Assembly (NCBI GenBank): GCA_945898275.1
Contig: CAMDHZ010000027.1
Location: forward strand, 1 to 37,174
Direction: 5' to 3'
DNA: 37,174 nucleotides
Source of the DNA: Chitinophaga pinensis
GTDB lineage: Bacteria; Bacteroidota; Bacteroidia; UKL13-3
A program made the translations under genes and the position numbers. Shown here one piece after another: positions 2,972 through 10,930 of this stretch (the first letter of the stretch is position 1; the number at the start of each line of letters is the position of its first letter). The notes beneath the pieces were generated by a model. The model was not told where the DNA came from, did not search any database, and was given only the letters and a program-made list of their open reading frames with translations.

Positions 2972-4465
2972 TTATTTTATACCTTCTAGGTAGATCAATA
3001 ATTTATTTTGCCTAAAGCCTTCAGAGTTATTATACCAGTTTTCATATTCTTTACCTTCACTAGTTGCCCAATCAGCCAACTTTGGATAGCCAGTTAAGAT
3101 ATCTTGCTTTTCTACCATGTGAGGTATTAAACCTTCAACTTTAATTGCAAAAGGTAAATTGTTTTTGGTTTTATAGTAAGTCCCCTTTTCAAAACTTGAA
3201 TTGTCTTTTTCTGTGCCAAAGATTTTTTTATCTGCCAAACTACTTGGAATATTGTCAGACAAATGCACTTCAATGCCTCTATTTTGATTTACAACAATAT
3301 ATGGATTTAGTTTAAGTTCTTTTACCTCAATAGCAGATTCTTTTGCAACATTGAAAGAAACTATTACAGAAACTTTTTCAGAGGTATAAAATGGTCCTTC
3401 TGGATTAACATTAATTCCTGATCCACCTGCACCTGGGAATTGCTTTCTGGCTTGATCGAATATTAAAACATTTGCATAATCTTGTTCTGATTCTGTGCCG
3501 TTATCATTAAACTTAAACACCTCAGTAAAATTGGTCACATTACCTTTAACACCTGTAATCAACTCAGGTTTTAAACCATCAAATTGAACAGCAAATGCAT
3601 TGTTGTAACTTGCGCCAATGGCTAAAACATTAGTAGTAATTTTTACTTCTACTACTTTATTATCTGCATTGGTAACAGCAATTGCGCCATAAGCAGTAAC
3701 AAAATCGTTAAAGTCGTAATCGCCAGTTGCAGGCCATAGGTCTTCAAACATTAAAGTAGATTCTCCGGCATTAGGGATTTGAACGTCATATGCTCTGTCT
3801 TTGTCTTCTGGGTATGCATCTTGGTTATCTGCAACACCATCGCCATCTTTATCTAAAATTTGAACTTGCGGTAAACAATTATTCGTAGGGTCTGCATAGT
3901 AAGTGCCTGGAATTGAAATATCATCTACAATTAATCTAGAACCTGAATTTCCACCTACACCCACTAAACTGATCATAATTTTATAAGGTAAAGTTGAATT
4001 AGCAATTGCAGCAGGAATAGCAAACGACAGGTTCTGTGCAGTTGTAGGAAAAGGGCTAGAATAGCTGATAGAATCAAATCTTACTAAAGTTCCTTCTTTG
4101 AACTGGCCCGGGTCTGCTGCATTGTATGGAATATAAGATAATATAATGCGTCTAACAGAACCAGCAGTAGCAGCTTGATTTTTATATTTTAAAGTGATGT
4201 TGCCAGATCCTGGCTTCATCCAAGGTGTTTTTACCCAACATGCACCAATGGATGGATTTGAAGGGGAATTACTAAGGATTGACCAACTGCCAGTGATTGG
4301 CAGCCCAGCTGAATTTGTGTAAGTAGCAGAACCAAATGCCCAGCAATTGGCTTGCTCTAAAGATCTATTTCCTGACTCTGCGGTCAATACAGGTAGTGCC
4401 GTTTGCGCGCCAAGGTAAGCTGTAAATAGTAAACTGCTTACAATTGATAATAATAGCTTTTTCAT
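2972..4465 (-). CDS. Secreted LruC-domain protein, copy B
   Basis: 497 residues, a paralogue of the product at 789-2270 with the same architecture. It has a signal peptide (MKKLLLSIVSSLLFTAYLGAQ), an unassigned beta-rich N-terminal region, and the acidic loop DKDGDGVADNQDAYPEDKD at about residue 205. The LruC/DUF4842 domain begins STLMFEDLWPATGDYDFNDF. The C terminus (GYPKLADWATSEGKEYENWY, then LLIYLEGIK) is nearly the same in both copies, while the N-terminal regions have diverged strongly. The fast change in the N-terminal part suggests it carries the variable binding function; that is inference. It is transcribed with the lipoprotein gene 20 bases upstream. Confidence 0.82.
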   Translation of the reverse strand: MKKLLLSIVSSLLFTAYLGAQTALPVLTAESGNRSLEQANCWAFGSATYTNSAGLPITGSWSILSNSPSNPSIGACWVKTPWMKPGSGNITLKYKNQAATAGSVRRIILSYIPYNAADPGQFKEGTLVRFDSISYSSPFPTTAQNLSFAIPAAIANSTLPYKIMISLVGVGGNSGSRLIVDDISIPGTYYADPTNNCLPQVQILDKDGDGVADNQDAYPEDKDRAYDVQIPNAGESTLMFEDLWPATGDYDFNDFVTAYGAIAVTNADNKVVEVKITTNVLAIGASYNNAFAVQFDGLKPELITGVKGNVTNFTEVFKFNDNGTESEQDYANVLIFDQARKQFPGAGGSGINVNPEGPFYTSEKVSVIVSFNVAKESAIEVKELKLNPYIVVNQNRGIEVHLSDNIPSSLADKKIFGTEKDNSSFEKGTYYKTKNNLPFAIKVEGLIPHMVEKQDILTGYPKLADWATSEGKEYENWYNNSEGFRQNKLLIYLEGIK

Positions 4466-4485
4466 ATTTATATATGGTTGTTTTA

Positions 4486-4893
4486 TTATTCGTTAGTTAC
4501 GGTAGGAAGAATATCGAATGAGATTATTGGAAGACTAGTACTAAATGTTTTGCTAACTGCACCATATTTTACCACTAGGTTGTTCATATTTGTTGGAACA
4601 GCTAATTTCATTTCAAAACTTTTAGCCATTTCTTGGTTTCCGGCATAAAAGATTTTTTTGCCATCTTCGCTGCTAATCGTTAAAGTAGTTTTTACTGGTT
4701 CAATAGTTGGAATGCCAACATATTTAAAGGTGATTTCATTAGTGGTTTTCCAATCGAATGACTCACTGGTTTTAAGCTCAGAGAATTTTGTAATGGAGTT
4801 TTTCGTTGGAGTGTCTTGTTTTTCTGTTAATTGCTTTTTGCATGAGGTTAAACCTACAATTGCAATTAGGGAAAGAATCATTAGTTTTTTCAT
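4486..4893 (-). CDS. Small lipoprotein of unknown function, copy B
   Basis: 135 residues, a paralogue of 2291-2698. The signal peptide ends in the lipobox LTSC with Cys18 followed by KKQ. The blocks SESFDWKTTNEITFKYVGIP and TFSTSLPIISFDILP are shared with copy A; the stretch after the Cys is variable. It is the first gene of the second lipoprotein-LruC operon. The conserved block at 4926-4940 lies upstream in the same position as for copy A. Confidence 0.78.
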   Translation of the reverse strand: MKKLMILSLIAIVGLTSCKKQLTEKQDTPTKNSITKFSELKTSESFDWKTTNEITFKYVGIPTIEPVKTTLTISSEDGKKIFYAGNQEMAKSFEMKLAVPTNMNNLVVKYGAVSKTFSTSLPIISFDILPTVTNE

Positions 4894-5290: not shown

Positions 5291-6496
5291 ATGGCAGGAA
5301 CAGAATTTTATGGCGCTGAAGAGCGCAAAGAAATCAACGATGTATTAGAAACAGGCATCTTTTTTAGGTATAATCACGACCAACAGCGTAATAATATTTG
5401 GAAGGCAAAAGAATTTGAAGCAGAAGTTGCCAAATTAGTCGGCGCTAAATATGCACATGCTGTATCTAGTGGTTCAACAGCCGTTTCTTGCGCTTTGGCC
5501 GCGGCTGGTATTGGAGCTGGAGATGAGGTAATAGTGCCTCCTTTTACTTATATTGCTTCTGTTGAAGCGGTAATTTTTGCTGGTGCATTGCCTGTTTTTG
5601 CAGAAATAGATGAAACCCTGTGTCTTAGCGCAACAGGTATTAAAAATGCAATTACACCCAAAACAAAAGCGGTATTATTAGTTCATATGTGCGGCCAAAT
5701 GGCACAAATGGATGAAATCATGCAAGTTGTAAAAGAGCATAACCTAGTTTTGGTTGAAGATGCAGGTCAGGCCATGGCTGCCAGCTACAAAGGCATTAGC
5801 ACAGGTTTGTTTGGTAAAACAGGTTGCTATAGTTTCGATTTTTTCAAAATTGCAACAGCAGGCGAAGGTGGCGTTATGGTTACCAATGATGAAGTTGCTT
5901 ACAAACTTGCAGATAACTTTGCAGACCATGGACATGATCATATAGGTTCAAACCGAGGCATGGAAAACCATCCAATTGTAGGTTTTAACTATAGAATATC
6001 AGAATTACATGCTGCAATTGGTTTGGTTCAAACCCGCCGTGTGCCAATGATAAAAGAGAAAAATAACATGCATAAGAAGTTTATGATGCAAGAATTAGGC
6101 AAAATTTCAGGGGTTACATTTGCCTCAATTCCTGATGAAAATGGTGATTCTGCAACTTTCTTAAATATGCTTTTGCCTGATACTAATGCAGCTCAAAAAG
6201 TGGTAGATGCATTTAATGCCAATGGAGTGGGTGGTTTTAATTATTGGTTTACAAACATGTACCATTTTATTAACCAATGGAACCATATCAAAGAGGGAAA
6301 AGTGGCGGCCAAAACCAACGTTCAATTATTAGGTGCTCCTCAAGATTATAAAAACCTGGATTTGCCAAAAACACAAGAGACGATTGGAAGGCTAATTTCT
6401 TTCGGAATTCGCGCCAGCTGGACAGAGCAAGAACTTAAAGAACTTGTGGCGAAAATGACCGCAAGCATCAACCAAGCAATGTCTCAAACAGCCTAA
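5291..6496 (+). CDS. kdnA: Kdo8N transaminase (8-amino-3,8-dideoxy-manno-octulosonate), DegT family
   Basis: 401 residues, a PLP-dependent DegT/DnrJ/EryC1 sugar aminotransferase. Visible features are SGSTA (60-64), the PLP-ring Asp157 in VEDAGQ, and the Schiff-base Lys186 in SFDFFKIATAGEGG; the fold continues through GFNYRISELHAAIG. Members of this family transaminate many keto-sugars, so the substrate comes from context. The next two genes are a KdnB-type alcohol dehydrogenase and KdsA. In Shewanella oneidensis, KdnA uses glutamate to convert 8-oxo-Kdo to Kdo8N for LPS. The gene follows a probable promoter and is 9 bases from kdnB. Family is certain; the Kdo8N role is very likely. Confidence 0.86.
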   Translation: MAGTEFYGAEERKEINDVLETGIFFRYNHDQQRNNIWKAKEFEAEVAKLVGAKYAHAVSSGSTAVSCALAAAGIGAGDEVIVPPFTYIASVEAVIFAGALPVFAEIDETLCLSATGIKNAITPKTKAVLLVHMCGQMAQMDEIMQVVKEHNLVLVEDAGQAMAASYKGISTGLFGKTGCYSFDFFKIATAGEGGVMVTNDEVAYKLADNFADHGHDHIGSNRGMENHPIVGFNYRISELHAAIGLVQTRRVPMIKEKNNMHKKFMMQELGKISGVTFASIPDENGDSATFLNMLLPDTNAAQKVVDAFNANGVGGFNYWFTNMYHFINQWNHIKEGKVAAKTNVQLLGAPQDYKNLDLPKTQETIGRLISFGIRASWTEQELKELVAKMTASINQAMSQTA

Positions 6497-6505
6497 TTAA
6501 TCAAT

Positions 6506-7588
6506 ATGGCACACAAAAATTTTAAGTCGATTGATAAAACAGTTTTTGGCAGGGGAAGTTTTTCTCAATTGGCAGAAATAGTTGCACCAATAAGAGATAG
6601 GAACAAGCAGTATTTTGTTTATATCGTAGATAATTATTTTAAAGGAAAAGCACTCGAAAACCAATTGCAAGAGCTTCCTGGGGATTTGATTTATTTTATA
6701 GATGTTGATCCACATGAGCCAACTACAGAGCAAATAGACCATTTGCGTGACGAGATTTTATCACAAAAAGGTCTACCTAGCGGTTTAATTGGAATTGGAG
6801 GCGGAAGCATTATGGATATTGCAAAAGCCTTGGCCTTGATGCTTACCAATGAAGGTTCATCTGTTCAATATCAAGGTTTGAACCTAATTAAAAAACCGGG
6901 TATTTATCACCTTGGTGTGCCTACCATTTCTGGCACTGGCGCAGAATGTAGCATGACTGCTGTGCTCACAGGACCAGAGAAAAAGTTAGGTTTAAAGTGC
7001 GATTGGACCATATTCGACCAAGTTATTTTAGACTCAGAGTTAACTGAAAGTGTTCCTACCGATAAATGGTTTTATACAGGAATGGATACTTTTATTCATT
7101 GCATAGAAAGTAGAGATGGAATGCTCAATAACGCCTATAGTTTTGCTTATGGCGAGCAATCACTCAAACTTTGTAGAGAGGTTTATCTTGGCGAAAATGC
7201 CGGTAGAAGCGCAGAGAATGATGATAAATTAATGGTGGCTTCTTTAATGGGTGGTTTGAGCCTAACCTATTCAGAAGTGGGCGTTTGTCATGCATTGAGT
7301 TATGGATTAAGCAAGATTTTTGGCGAGAAACACTGTTATGCAAATTGTTTAGCGTTTCAACATTTGGGAGATTATTACCCAGAAGGTGTGGCGGAGTTTA
7401 AAACGATGCTAACCCAACATGGCGTAACTTTGCCACAAGGATTAAGCGCAAATTGGACTGATGCAGAAATAACTGCAATGGCAAATGTTGCCTATAATTT
7501 GCCGCATATGTGGAACCACGCCATTGGCACAGATTGGAAAGAAAAGATTACCTTAGATACTATTAAAGATTTATTTAGAAGATTATAA
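6506..7588 (+). CDS. kdnB: Kdo 8-oxidase, iron-type alcohol dehydrogenase family
   Basis: 360 residues, group III (iron-containing) alcohol dehydrogenase fold. The nucleotide-binding GGGS is at 98-101. The usual metal ligands are all present: Asp194 and His198 in GMDTFIHCIES, His262 in VCHALSYG and His276 in GEKHCYAN. In Shewanella, KdnB oxidises the C8 hydroxyl of Kdo to the aldehyde, which KdnA then aminates. The direct neighbours kdnA (9 bases upstream) and kdsA (2 bases downstream) fit this role and argue against a general alcohol dehydrogenase. The start is the first ATG after the kdnA stop. Confidence 0.86.
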   Translation: MAHKNFKSIDKTVFGRGSFSQLAEIVAPIRDRNKQYFVYIVDNYFKGKALENQLQELPGDLIYFIDVDPHEPTTEQIDHLRDEILSQKGLPSGLIGIGGGSIMDIAKALALMLTNEGSSVQYQGLNLIKKPGIYHLGVPTISGTGAECSMTAVLTGPEKKLGLKCDWTIFDQVILDSELTESVPTDKWFYTGMDTFIHCIESRDGMLNNAYSFAYGEQSLKLCREVYLGENAGRSAENDDKLMVASLMGGLSLTYSEVGVCHALSYGLSKIFGEKHCYANCLAFQHLGDYYPEGVAEFKTMLTQHGVTLPQGLSANWTDAEITAMANVAYNLPHMWNHAIGTDWKEKITLDTIKDLFRRL

Positions 7589-7590
7589 AC

Positions 7591-8421
7591 ATGACAAAAA
7601 TTGTAAAAGTTGGAGACATAGAATGTGGTTCGAAGGAATTATTCCTTATCTCTGGACCTTGTGTAATAGAAGATGAAATGATAATGATGAAAACTGCGGA
7701 GAAATTGAAAGAGGTTTCTGAGCGGTTAAATATTAAATTAATATATAAATCATCATTTCAAAAGGATAACCGTAGTAGTTTAAAATATTATGATGGTCCA
7801 GGCCTTGCGGCGGGAGTTAAGTTGTTGGCAAAAATTCGTGAACAGTTTGGCTTCCCTATTTTAACCGACGTACATTATCCAGACCAAGCCACTGCTGCTG
7901 GAGAAGTGGTTGATGTAATTCAAATACCTGCGTATTTATGCATGCAAAGCACTTTGTTGGTTGCTGCAGCAAAAACCAATAAGGTTGTGAATATTAAGCA
8001 TGGCCAGTTCTTGGCACCCGATAACATGAAGCACCCAGTTGCTAAATGTGTAGAAAGCGGAAATGACCAAGTGATTTTAACAGAGCGTGGTTATACTTTT
8101 GGGTACAATGATTTAATTGTTGATCCAAGAAGTTTTTACCATTTGAGAAATATTGGATATCCAGTAGTGTTTGACGTTACACATTGTGTGCGCAAATATG
8201 GTACCCCAAGTGCCGATCCAAATGGAGGTGCACGTGAGTTTTTGCCAGTATTGAGCAGGGCAGGGGTAGCTTCAGGTATTGATGGTATTTTTATTGAAAC
8301 CCATCCTGACCCTGCAAAAGCTTTATGCGATGCCGCATCTCAATTGTGTGTTTATGATTTAGAAGAGTTTTTAAAACCTTTAATTGAATTGCATCAAGTT
8401 GAATTAAAATACCGTGTTTAA
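7591..8421 (+). CDS. kdsA: 3-deoxy-8-phosphooctulonate synthase (Kdo8P synthase)
   Basis: 276 residues, full length for KdsA. It condenses arabinose 5-phosphate with PEP to Kdo 8-phosphate in the cytoplasm. Recognisable blocks are ISGPCVIE, YKSSFQKDNRSS, IQIPAYLCMQ, KHGQFLAP and FIETHPDP. Cys24, His198, Glu236 and Asp247 match the metal ligands of the metal-dependent class (as in Aquifex), rather than the Asn-containing metal-independent class of E. coli. It starts 2 bases after the kdnB stop, so it is in the same operon. The A5P-forming enzyme KdsD is not in the window. Confidence 0.96.
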   Translation: MTKIVKVGDIECGSKELFLISGPCVIEDEMIMMKTAEKLKEVSERLNIKLIYKSSFQKDNRSSLKYYDGPGLAAGVKLLAKIREQFGFPILTDVHYPDQATAAGEVVDVIQIPAYLCMQSTLLVAAAKTNKVVNIKHGQFLAPDNMKHPVAKCVESGNDQVILTERGYTFGYNDLIVDPRSFYHLRNIGYPVVFDVTHCVRKYGTPSADPNGGAREFLPVLSRAGVASGIDGIFIETHPDPAKALCDAASQLCVYDLEEFLKPLIELHQVELKYRV

Positions 8422-8422
8422 T

Positions 8423-9091
8423 ATGAAAACAAATTTCTTTTTCTTTGGCTTCGTTTTTTTGTGTTTACTTTTGGTTCAACCCAACACCACATTTGGACAA
8501 TACGAAAGGCCAAGGGAAGTAAGCAATAATAATGGTAAAAGAGCCAATATTTACCTGAGTTTGGGTTCTGGATTGCAATACAAATATGGTATGATTGGCG
8601 GAGGAGTAGGAATGTATATTGGAGAAAACACATTAGGTGAATTAACCTTTGGCTTAGGCGGATATGGCTTTAAAACTGGAGTTAACATGGTTTTTAATAC
8701 CGGTTCCAACAAAAAATGGCGTCCAACGCTAGGATTTGTAAGAGGTTCTGGTGTTAGCAACTTTGAAACTGAGGTTGAGGTGGTTTATAATTTAGAGGTT
8801 AAGGATGTAACCACAAAAATTAACTTACCTGCCGCATATGCTTTAACCCCTGGCGTTCAGCGAATAATCATGTTTAGAAATGGAAGTAGCTTGGCCTTAG
8901 ATTTAGGGATTGGAATTTCGCTTAATCAACATGAAGCCACTTTTTCTGAAGACCAGGTTCTGTTCGATGGCGTTTTAAGACCTTCACAATTGATTTCTTT
9001 CAGTGATTTACAAAAGACCACATTCAAAGTGATGGGACCATCAGGCATTATTTGTGGTGTGAGTTACAATTTTGGACTAGGCTTGAAATAA
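8423..9091 (+). CDS. Predicted outer-membrane beta-barrel-like protein, unknown function
   Basis: 222 residues from the ATG at 8423; an in-frame start at 8414 would overlap kdsA and is less likely. An N-terminal signal peptide (MKTNFFFFGFVFLCLLLV to about TFGQ) is followed by alternating polar and hydrophobic, glycine-rich strands (IYLSLGSGLQYKYG, GVGMYIGENTLGELTFGLGGYGF). It ends in a strand with an aromatic residue (VSYNFGLGLK). This pattern fits a small outer-membrane barrel. No family is recognised. It follows the kdsA stop by one base inside the Kdo8N cluster, so a role at the LPS-bearing outer membrane is plausible but unproven. Confidence 0.7.
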   Translation: MKTNFFFFGFVFLCLLLVQPNTTFGQYERPREVSNNNGKRANIYLSLGSGLQYKYGMIGGGVGMYIGENTLGELTFGLGGYGFKTGVNMVFNTGSNKKWRPTLGFVRGSGVSNFETEVEVVYNLEVKDVTTKINLPAAYALTPGVQRIIMFRNGSSLALDLGIGISLNQHEATFSEDQVLFDGVLRPSQLISFSDLQKTTFKVMGPSGIICGVSYNFGLGLK

Positions 9092-9159: not shown

Positions 9160-10170
9160 ATGGAATTATATTTAGATTCAGCAAACTTAAAAGAAATTGA
9201 AGAAGCCTTTAAATTAGGCATTCTTAATGGTTTAACCACTACACCAACCTTCATGCAACGCGAAGGAATTACTGACGTAGACGGGATGATTGTAAAATTG
9301 TCAAAAATAGTACCTGTGCTTCAGATTGAAGCTTTGGGAGATACTGCCGAAGATGTTTTAGCAGAAGCAAAAAGACAATTGGCTTTAGGTTTAGACCCAA
9401 CAAAGACTGTTTTCAAAATACCTGTTTCTTTAGAAGGTGTAAGAGCATGTCGTTTGTTAAGAAACGAAGGTTTATTGGTTAATGTTCACTTGGTTTATAC
9501 CTTACAACAAGCTTATATGGCTATGCATGCTGGGGCAACTTATGTTTGTCCTTTGGTTGGCCGTTTGCAAGACCAAGGGCATGATGCCTTAGACTTAGTG
9601 GCTCAAATTGTGGATGCCGTTAATGATTATGGTTATGATACTAAAGTTATGTTTTCTTCAGTGAGAAATGTAGAACATGTTAGAAATGCCTTAAACTTGG
9701 GCGTACACACAATAACTGTTCCTTTAAAGATATTAAAGCAGTTAACAGAAAATCACTTTACTACTGTTGGTACCGAGCAGTTTATTCATGATACACGCTT
9801 AATGACAGTTAAAGTACGTGAAGCCATTAATGGTGTAAATCCGTTAGTAAGTGCAGATACAACTTTGGTAGATGCTATTATTAAAATGACTGAGTATGGT
9901 TTTGGTGCCATTACAATTGTGAATGCAGATGGTAGTTTAAAAGGAGTGTTTACAGATGGTGATTTGCGTCGCAAAATTCAAACAGACGGAAGAGATGTAT
10001 TGAGCAAAAAGATGTCAGACTTTACTTACAGCGATGCTAAGTCTGTAGAAGCAGGTGCTTTATTAAATGATGCTGCTCAAATTCTTAAAGCAACTAAAGT
10101 AGATACACTTTTAGTTACTGAAAATGGCAAACCTATTGGTATGTTAGATATTCAAGATTTAGAAGCATAA
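9160..10170 (+). CDS. Transaldolase/fructose-6-phosphate-aldolase-like domain fused to KdsD-type tandem CBS domains
   Basis: 336 residues. Residues 1-215 match the small TalC/FSA class: MELYLDSAN with Asp6, GLTTTPT, the Schiff-base Lys86 in VFKIPVSLEG, NVHLVY, YVCPLVGR and ITVPLKI. Residues 220-336 are two CBS domains with GVFTDGDLRRKIQ and PIGMLDIQDLEA, which closely resemble the CBS pair at the C terminus of arabinose-5-phosphate isomerase KdsD. Compared with E. coli FSA (from memory), Lys and Asp are kept, but Asn28, Thr109 and Tyr131 correspond to Thr28, His110 and Leu132. Substrate choice has therefore probably changed. The gene is 68 bases after the outer-membrane gene, with AGGA before the ATG. 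It lies among Kdo genes in a window without kdsD. A role in supplying A5P is a hypothesis; ordinary transaldolase activity is the alternative. Confidence 0.85.
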   Translation: MELYLDSANLKEIEEAFKLGILNGLTTTPTFMQREGITDVDGMIVKLSKIVPVLQIEALGDTAEDVLAEAKRQLALGLDPTKTVFKIPVSLEGVRACRLLRNEGLLVNVHLVYTLQQAYMAMHAGATYVCPLVGRLQDQGHDALDLVAQIVDAVNDYGYDTKVMFSSVRNVEHVRNALNLGVHTITVPLKILKQLTENHFTTVGTEQFIHDTRLMTVKVREAINGVNPLVSADTTLVDAIIKMTEYGFGAITIVNADGSLKGVFTDGDLRRKIQTDGRDVLSKKMSDFTYSDAKSVEAGALLNDAAQILKATKVDTLLVTENGKPIGMLDIQDLEA

Positions 10171-10187
10171 AACTTTATAATTTTAAG

Positions 10188-10212
10188 AAAGCCGCCTTGT
10201 GCGGCTTTTTTT
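10188..10212 (+). terminator. Hairpin terminator between the aldolase-CBS gene and the kdsC-like gene
   Basis: AAAGCCGC (10188-10195) pairs with GCGGCTTT (10201-10208) around a 5-base loop, followed by a T-run to 10212. It lies 17 bases past the aldolase-CBS stop and ends 10 bases before the next ATG. It may end the main transcript or attenuate expression of the phosphatase gene. Confidence 0.75.
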
Positions 10213-10222
10213 ATACTTACTT

Positions 10223-10930
10223 ATGAACGAAATAAAATCTGTTTTCGAAAGTATTGGCGGCCAATTTTGTACGCCTATCTCTCAATTATCTGAACGATTG
10301 GCTACCATTAAAGCTTTTGTTTACGATTGGGACGGCGTGTTTAACAATGCCGTTAAAAACGAAAATAAAAGCAGTAATTTTAATGAAGCAGATAGCATGG
10401 GAACCAATATGCTTCGGTTCAGCCATTACCTAAAACACCAGCAGCTTCCCCAAACTGCTATTATTTCAGGTGAGAAAAATGAATTTGCTTTTTACTTTTC
10501 TGAAAGAGAGCATTTTGATGCTTGCTATTTCAAAGTACCCAATAAAATTATTGCACTGGACCATTTTTGTGAACATCATAATTTGAAACGAGAAGAGGTT
10601 TGTTATACATTTGACGATGTACTTGACCTTAGCGTGGCTGCGGTTTGCGGACTTAGAATGATGATTAACCGCAAAGCAAATCCATTGTTTAAGAATTACC
10701 TTGTTAAAAACAACTTAGCAGATTATATAACAGCTTCTGAAAGTGGCAATTTTGCTGTAAGAGAAGTTTCAGAATTATTAATGGGCTTGAACCAAAACTA
10801 TGATAGTTGCCTAGATGAACGCAAAGATTTTACAAGTATTTACCGTAATTATTTAGATTTTAGACAAGCCTTAAACACCTCATTTTTTACCATTGAAAAT
10901 GAAAATGTTAAAAGTGTTGCAAGACCCTAG
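10223..10930 (+). CDS. kdsC: KdsC-like HAD phosphatase (Kdo 8-phosphate phosphatase)
   Basis: 235 residues from the ATG at 10223; an upstream in-frame GTG lies inside the terminator hairpin and is rejected. HAD motifs resemble KdsC: AFVYDWDGVFNNAV (motif I, DxD), AIISGEKN (motif II), the Lys in FKVPNKIIAL, and YTFDDVLDLSVAAVCGL (motif with the paired Asp residues). KdsC releases Kdo from Kdo 8-phosphate, the step between KdsA and KdnB. The enzyme is longer than the usual 170-190 residues, with about 25 extra N-terminal and 40 extra C-terminal residues of unknown role. The stop codon overlaps that of the convergent ppk1 in the tetramer CTAG. Function is strongly supported by context but motifs are somewhat diverged. 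Confidence 0.75.
   Translation: MNEIKSVFESIGGQFCTPISQLSERLATIKAFVYDWDGVFNNAVKNENKSSNFNEADSMGTNMLRFSHYLKHQQLPQTAIISGEKNEFAFYFSEREHFDACYFKVPNKIIALDHFCEHHNLKREEVCYTFDDVLDLSVAAVCGLRMMINRKANPLFKNYLVKNNLADYITASESGNFAVREVSELLMGLNQNYDSCLDERKDFTSIYRNYLDFRQALNTSFFTIENENVKSVARP

Follow-up and report, generated by a model that had tools for sequence, protein, structure and literature searches.

A TalC/FSA-type barrel fused to KdsD-like CBS domains, a candidate substitute for arabinose 5-phosphate isomerase in Bacteroidota

The fusion protein

The sequence analysed is contig CAMDHZ010000027.1 of Chitinophaga pinensis (Bacteroidota; Bacteroidia; UKL13-3; assembly GCA_945898275.1), positions 1–37,174 of the forward strand, and the whole stretch of 37,174 nucleotides is called here the window. 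The source assembly (G000) has 3.52 Mb in 106 contigs and is 98% complete. Among genes for synthesis of 3-deoxy-D-manno-octulosonate (Kdo) the window carries an open reading frame (ORF) at 9160–10170 (+ strand) whose 336-residue product joins an aldolase barrel to the type of CBS pair found in arabinose 5-phosphate (A5P) isomerases (KdsD/KpsF/GutQ). The protein, termed the fusion, is a candidate replacement of KdsD and has two parts:

9160–9810, + strand: TAL_FSA Schiff-base triosephosphate isomerase (TIM)-barrel domain of the fusion (residues 1 to ~217; PF00923 at residues 3–201, E 4.2e-36)
9805–10167, + strand: KdsD-type CBS pair of the fusion (residues 216–336; its best matches in the PDB are CBS pairs of A5P isomerases)

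The scans with Pfam and NCBIfam provide models that cover each half separately and none that covers the whole architecture. Pfam gives TAL_FSA and CBS only, the latter in two stretches (E 4.3e-15), and no SIS domain was found in the fusion. The NCBIfam model TIGR00875 (fsa_talC_mipB, fructose-6-phosphate aldolase) spans residues 1–212 with 166.3 bits, under its cut-off of 245.95, while TIGR00393 (kpsF) is restricted to residues 215–329 (65 bits, cut-off 203.7). The preliminary description of this DNA had proposed a TalC/FSA-type amino terminus with Lys86 and Asp6 kept, and the PF00923 match and both residues bear this out. The AlphaFold model of the fusion has a mean predicted local distance difference test score (pLDDT) of 86, which falls below 50 at residues 198–207, and a predicted template modelling score (pTM) of 0.58. 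The best PDB matches of the barrel are 3r8r and 1vpx, and its model superimposes on 1vpx, 3s0c and 3r8r with a Z score of 29 and a root-mean-square deviation of 1.3–1.4 across 193–195 residues. The structure search with the full-length model listed barrel matches only, and the CBS pair was also modelled and searched alone (pLDDT 88): its top fold matches are 4o9k and 3k2v, CBS pairs of A5P isomerases. By sequence the top three PDB entries are the A5P isomerase CBS pairs 4o9k, 3k2v and 3fna. The KdsD-like character of this carboxyl terminus, noted previously, is thus found again both in sequence and in predicted fold, and the pair may have been kept from a KdsD.

Origins other than a long-established bacterial gene were considered. 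A recent gene join in a single genome is ruled out by the finding of 87 distinct full-length fusions. No relative was detected among viral contigs, by a single-protein query that detects close relatives only, and none of 86 plasmid records has a match spanning 80% of the query.

Absence of KdsD and mutual exclusion with the fusion

KdsD was not found in the source assembly by profile searches with the SIS family and TIGR00393. The SIS family has three matches there with E up to 1e-3, namely GmhA, MurQ and a phosphoglucose/phosphomannose isomerase-like protein. They were rejected as a hidden single-domain KdsD: GmhA scores above the cut-off of NF001628 and its PDB matches are phosphoheptose isomerases, MurQ scores above the cut-off of TIGR00274, and the third protein reaches 208.5 bits with TIGR02128 (cut-off 213.9). 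TIGR00393 matches in the source genome only CBS-bearing proteins and GmhA, none above cut-off. All these SIS and KpsF matches lie outside the window save for the CBS part of the fusion itself, in agreement with the earlier remark that the window has no SIS-domain isomerase. GlmS is nearly universal. The SIS search of the source assembly listed no GlmS-like protein, which reflects a gap, a miss or a true absence.

The distribution of the fusion, KdsD and KdsA was surveyed in an identical set of 60 related genomes, 19 of which belong to one genus. The fusion is present in 28 of them (the copy of G017 is interrupted by a contig end) and KdsD in 23, called with E up to 1e-30; 22 of these pass the family cut-off, and the match in G058 is broken (150 bits). 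KdsA above cut-off is found in 50 relatives: 28 have the fusion, 21 have KdsD (including G058), none has both and one, G033, has neither. The state of G033 is likely due to a gap because its KdsA is almost identical to that of the KdsD genome G021. The ten relatives outside the KdsA set are two KdsD genomes, seven genomes without KdsA, KdsD or fusion, and G048, in which contig ends interrupt KdsA and a fusion-like CBS end adjoining a KdsC-like gene. A sample of the phylum (395 Bacteroidota genomes, KdsA present in 287) gave the same picture: among the 287 there are 276 genomes with KdsD, six with the fusion, none with both and five with neither, and seven genomes of the sample have KdsD without KdsA. 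Fisher p values for the exclusion are 3e-13 (relatives) and 6e-10 (phylum sample), for genomes that are not independent. Five families account for the six fusion genomes of this sample, and each of these families also has members with KdsD; the state of the A5P supplier therefore switches within families.

A third set consists of the best 80 of at least 552 stretches in the GTDB collection that encode a relative of the fusion, hereafter the named loci. The scan for KdsD covered 58 of the 80 corresponding genomes (8 + 50), and KdsD is above cut-off in five. An ordinary KdsD accompanies the fusion, then, in 0/28 relatives, 0/6 genomes of the phylum sample and 5/58 named genomes rather than in all of them. 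Chromosome CP075895.1, titled complete, carries the fusion and has no KdsD match above cut-off.

A remodelled active site

The 87 distinct fusions were compared with E. coli FsaA and with 12 TalC proteins, each taken from a different relative (five of these relatives carry the fusion). Residues D6, E57, K86, N108, R135, S167 and R169 are invariant in all fusions. Seven further positions are fixed in 87/87 as T28, H110, C130, L132, Q137, F165 and S166, where the 12 TalC uniformly have N, T, S, F, D, A and A, and FsaA has N, T, A, Y, D, A and A. T28, H110, C130 and L132 occur in none of the TalC nor in FsaA. The TalC/FSA signature Asn28, Thr110 and Phe/Tyr132 is absent from every fusion. Three substitutions relative to E. 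coli FsaA had been proposed previously, of Asn28 by Thr28, of Thr by His110 and of Tyr by Leu132; comparison with the genome record of FsaA shows them to be real, and a fourth one, of Ala (Ser in TalC) by Cys130, adds to them. In a tree with the 12 TalC, 22 selected fusion barrels form one clade with support 100/100. As judged from its residues, the active site of the fusion is remodelled, not lost.

A separate TalC of ~220 residues is encoded in 23 of the 28 fusion relatives, including the source genome, and in all 32 other relatives. Ordinary transaldolase activity in these 23 genomes is therefore covered by another gene.

The Kdo gene cluster

The genes that surround the fusion in the window are the following:

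5291–6496, + strand: homologue of KdnA, 8-amino-Kdo transaminase (5k8b, E 1.6e-128 over residues 1–389; next match 1.5e-48)
6506–7588, + strand: homologue of KdnB, Kdo 8-oxidase of the iron-containing alcohol dehydrogenase type (5k8c, E 6.3e-119; 3rf7, 3.5e-115; then 2e-23)
7591–8421, + strand: kdsA, Kdo 8-phosphate synthase of the fusion-associated clade (NF003543, 348 bits, cut-off 242; TIGR01362, 331.7 bits, cut-off 314)
8414–9091, + strand: ORF of 225 residues between kdsA and the fusion gene (no Pfam or NCBIfam match; no pathway role indicated)
10199–10930, + strand: divergent KdsC-like phosphatase of the haloacid dehalogenase (HAD) type (NF007019, E 4.2e-14, 52.6 bits, under the cut-off of 208)

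The fusion gene had been placed between kdsA and a kdsC-like gene. This position is correct with the particularity that the ORF at 8414–9091 separates it from kdsA. A counterpart of this ORF adjoins the fusion in 14 of the 80 named loci with 28–91% identity, and it is less conserved than its neighbours. In at least 60 of the 61 relatives aligned, the KdsC-like protein retains the counterparts of E. coli KdsC residues D32, D34, K102, D125 and D126. The source genome also has a WaaA domain (PF04413; contig C8).

The genes found around the fusion in the 80 named loci are KdsC-like in 55, KdsA in 51, KdnA and KdnB in 45 each, KdsB in 34 and KdsD in none. Restricting the count to the 56 loci flanked by 4 kb or more on both sides gives 42, 35, 32, 32, 25 and 0, respectively. 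Relatives G022 and G034 have kdsA elsewhere in the genome, away from the fusion, and its product is 81–82% identical to the KdsA of the window. A role of the fusion in the KdnAB step was rejected: in loci L034, L035, L058 and L060 it adjoins KdsA with no KdnAB in the 15-kb stretch, and the fusion is therefore independent of KdnAB. In seven other loci (L084, L086, L087, L091, L093, L094 and L095) there is no KdsA nearby and a conserved ORF of 188–209 residues lies directly upstream of the fusion. Two loci stand out by their taxonomy: L101, filed under Candidatus Saccharibacteria, and L123, filed under Azovibrio restrictus, code for proteins 82% and 79% identical to the fusion of the window, and are probably mislabelled or mixed assemblies.

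The KdsA proteins follow the same division as the A5P supplier. In a tree of 85 KdsA proteins, from which identical and short sequences had been removed, 61 of the 62 sequences that come from fusion genomes group in a single clade, with support 100/100 and a stem of 1.04 changes per column, separate from all 22 sequences of KdsD genomes. A change of A5P supplier is therefore accompanied by a change in the type of KdsA. The sole outlier is a second KdsA copy of G024 (L179, 4812–5633, contig C9). It is of the KdsD-associated kind, has no KdsD within the 10-kb stretch, and is possibly a remnant of the older pathway. Note that the KdsA of the KdsD genomes G052 and G058 have long branches and an unusual make-up.

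Proposed function and alternatives

These data lead us to favour, with moderate confidence, the view that the fusion is a non-homologous replacement of KdsD that would supply KdsA with A5P, most probably through Schiff-base aldol chemistry. The preliminary description had put forward such a replacement; what stands is the location of the fusion at the place of KdsD and their near-exclusion, while the A5P-forming reaction itself is putative. The long-diverged and strongly remodelled TalC/FSA-type barrel would make D-arabinose 5-phosphate for KdsA, with Lys86 as the residue forming the Schiff base. Its main reaction would be aldol addition of glycolaldehyde to glyceraldehyde 3-phosphate. The second choice is transaldol release of A5P from an octulose 8-phosphate made by transketolase, according to our own carbon mapping. 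A5P is fructose 6-phosphate without the C1 hydroxymethyl group, its other centres having the same configuration, and therefore fits the lysine-to-phosphate-site register of the family without a shift; a pocket that no longer holds this group could account for the surrounding changes. The kept aldol residues and this register speak for the aldol route, the unclear origin of glycolaldehyde against it; sequence does not decide the matter. That E. coli FSA can make A5P in vitro, as had been stated previously, is supported by two reports, one in which glycolaldehyde is a preferred donor of FsaA and FsaB and glyceraldehyde 3-phosphate their acceptor (PMC6298115) and one in which FsaA forms A5P from the same substrates (PMC9947464). 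The title of PDB entry 3upb names a transaldolase in covalent complex with 'Arabinose-5-P'. The carboxyl terminal CBS pair may sense the state of the Kdo/8-amino-Kdo pathway, probably through the CMP-activated end product. A dedicated A5P synthase for Kdo/8-amino-Kdo under CBS feedback control, which works by C–C bond formation or transaldol release and is used instead of KdsD in part of Bacteroidota, is a tentative extension of this proposal that we hold as possible and somewhat short of probable. To our knowledge, it would be the first physiological A5P route for Kdo that bypasses isomerisation of ribulose 5-phosphate.

Several points weigh against the proposal. Positions 110 and 132, which we take to have a catalytic role in TalB/FSA, are both changed, and for this reason an ordinary aldolase activity of the fusion cannot be assumed. 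The source of glycolaldehyde is a weak point, since the free compound is probably scarce relative to the demand for Kdo. A synthetic-pathway study concluded that FsaA has too low an affinity for glycolaldehyde to carry flux (PMC9947464). No separate TalC is listed in five fusion relatives (G006, G011, G016, G017 and G041), two of which are 96–97% complete; the fusion might also act there as transaldolase, or TalC might lie in a gap. The five named genomes with both proteins (1/8 and 4/50) imply that fusion and KdsD can coexist, unless the assemblies are mixed. Their KdsD gene adjoins in four cases a gene that by our own reading resembles recQ, and is interrupted in the fifth by a contig end. 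The fusion may have been gained there before loss of KdsD, two routes may be in use, or the assemblies may be mixed. Twelve of the 80 named loci, two of them on short contigs, have no Kdo gene near the fusion. Six of the seven relatives without KdsA above cut-off, KdsD or fusion (G031, G038, G043, G045, G050 and G059) have a WaaA domain, and WaaA alone is therefore no proof of Kdo synthesis. As to regulation, the ligand of 4o9k is presumably CMP-Kdo.

The fusion could instead make no A5P and be a regulated transaldolase or accessory protein, with A5P coming from another enzyme such as one with the SIS domains of GlmS. Human GFAT can form A5P by isomerising ribulose 5-phosphate, and an E. coli mutant devoid of A5P isomerase is complemented by GFAT genes from several species (PMC11301363), so that a KdsA genome lacking KdsD is no proof that the fusion makes A5P. 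The five KdsA genomes of the phylum sample with neither protein, which gaps may explain, and the five fusion relatives without a listed TalC point the same way. This alternative is nonetheless unlikely, since it leaves unexplained the near-exclusion of fusion and KdsD, the A5P isomerase-like CBS pair and the fixed active-site changes of a protein that has an ordinary TalC alongside in 23/28 relatives; the three SIS matches of the source assembly, moreover, include no GlmS. Another possibility is that the fusion replaces KdsD and retains its reaction, isomerising ribulose 5-phosphate to A5P with Glu57 and His110 as catalysts and Lys86 as electrophile in an arrangement like the Glu/His/Lys of triosephosphate isomerase. 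No scarce donor would then be required, it would be understandable why His110 is fixed and why Asn28 and Phe/Tyr132 are lost, and exclusion and linkage fit equally well. We consider it slightly less likely still: a Schiff-base set that includes Asp6 and Lys86, invariant in 87/87 fusions, would be superfluous for isomerisation, and with an unchanged R135/R169 site ribulose 5-phosphate would place its phosphate one carbon too close to the lysine. No member of the TAL/FSA family is known to us to be such an isomerase.

Two more explanations concern the sugar and the assemblies. The long branch of the fusion-linked KdsA clade and the divergence of the KdsC-like phosphatase would fit a fusion making a different aldose phosphate, from which its KdsA would build a different sugar acid that KdnB and KdnA then modify. 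This is very improbable given that the KdsA of the window scores above the curated cut-offs in two models for Kdo 8-phosphate synthase and retains the KxNRSS motif, which we take to be tied to A5P, that KdnA and KdnB match the Shewanella Kdo enzymes, and that the four loci with KdsA cited above show no KdnAB nearby. Loss of KdsD from incomplete assemblies, everything else being coincidence, is the least credible explanation, to which we give hardly any weight. Many fusion genomes are titled metagenome-assembled genomes, and the source assembly itself is fragmented; against this stand the frequencies of KdsD in the three sets of fusion genomes compared to its presence in 276 of the 281 KdsA genomes of the phylum sample that lack the fusion, and the complete-titled chromosome CP075895.1.

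Relation to known systems and significance

The fusion shares with KdsD/KpsF/GutQ the position in the Kdo pathway that gene context indicates, the type of carboxyl terminal CBS pair and the presumed product, and the two are alternatives across genomes. It differs by the lack of a SIS domain, its catalytic part being a TAL/FSA barrel, and TIGR00393 hits its CBS part only. The barrel has the fold of TalC (B. subtilis 3r8r, T. maritima 1vpx and T. acidophilum 3s0c; 35–36% identity over the aligned barrel), and the seven residues invariant in the fusions, from D6 to R169, are found in 12/12 TalC of relatives. What separates it from TalC are the added CBS pair, the other seven fixed residues and its own clade. 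E. coli FsaA and FsaB belong to the same family and form A5P in vitro (PMC6298115, PMC9947464). FsaA differs by its low identity (27%), by Gln, Thr and Tyr in place of Glu57, His110 and Leu132 of the fusion, and by the lack of a CBS pair. A transaldolase is fused as well in the bifunctional transaldolase/phosphoglucose isomerase NF007080, known by its model name, where the partner domain is different and the transaldolase part is presumably a TalB-type barrel. No account of such a fusion or A5P route was found in titles and abstract openings of the open-licence literature; neither the family nor the step in the pathway is new, and the architecture and the replacement of KdsD are, as far as seen, undescribed.

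A5P isomerases have been described as the first committed enzymes in the production of Kdo and as possible drug targets (PMC10448790). A regulated and non-homologous replacement would close a gap in the pathway of many Bacteroidota, as the number of stretches with a fusion relative indicates, and would reveal a new physiological use of FSA-type chemistry. An aldol or transaldol route, if shown, would be a new route to A5P. An A5P aldolase with higher affinity for glycolaldehyde has been named as a way forward (PMC9947464), and the fusion might offer a natural A5P aldolase for glycolaldehyde assimilation.

Kdo modification and other features of the window

The cluster of the window is, by its genes, of the 8-amino-Kdo type because kdsA is preceded by two genes whose nearest solved relatives are KdnA and KdnB of Shewanella. 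By their PDB titles 5k8b is an 8-amino-3,8-dideoxy-alpha-D-manno-octulosonate transaminase and 5k8c a 3-deoxy-alpha-D-manno-octulosonate 8-oxidase, while 3rf7 is titled merely an iron-containing alcohol dehydrogenase. In Shewanella the synthesis of 8-amino-Kdo begins with KdnB, the Kdo 8-oxidase (PMC5125639), and 8-amino-Kdo (Kdo8N) has been called a hallmark of this genus (PMC6357163). The homologues described here sit with the fusion and belong to Bacteroidota, whose lipopolysaccharide is predicted to contain Kdo8N, a prediction that can be checked on isolates.

Upstream of these genes, positions 789–2698 and 2972–4893 of the window hold two adjoining gene pairs that resemble a tandem duplication. 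Each pair codes for a DUF4842 protein (493 and 497 residues, respectively) and has a neighbouring ORF of 135 residues.

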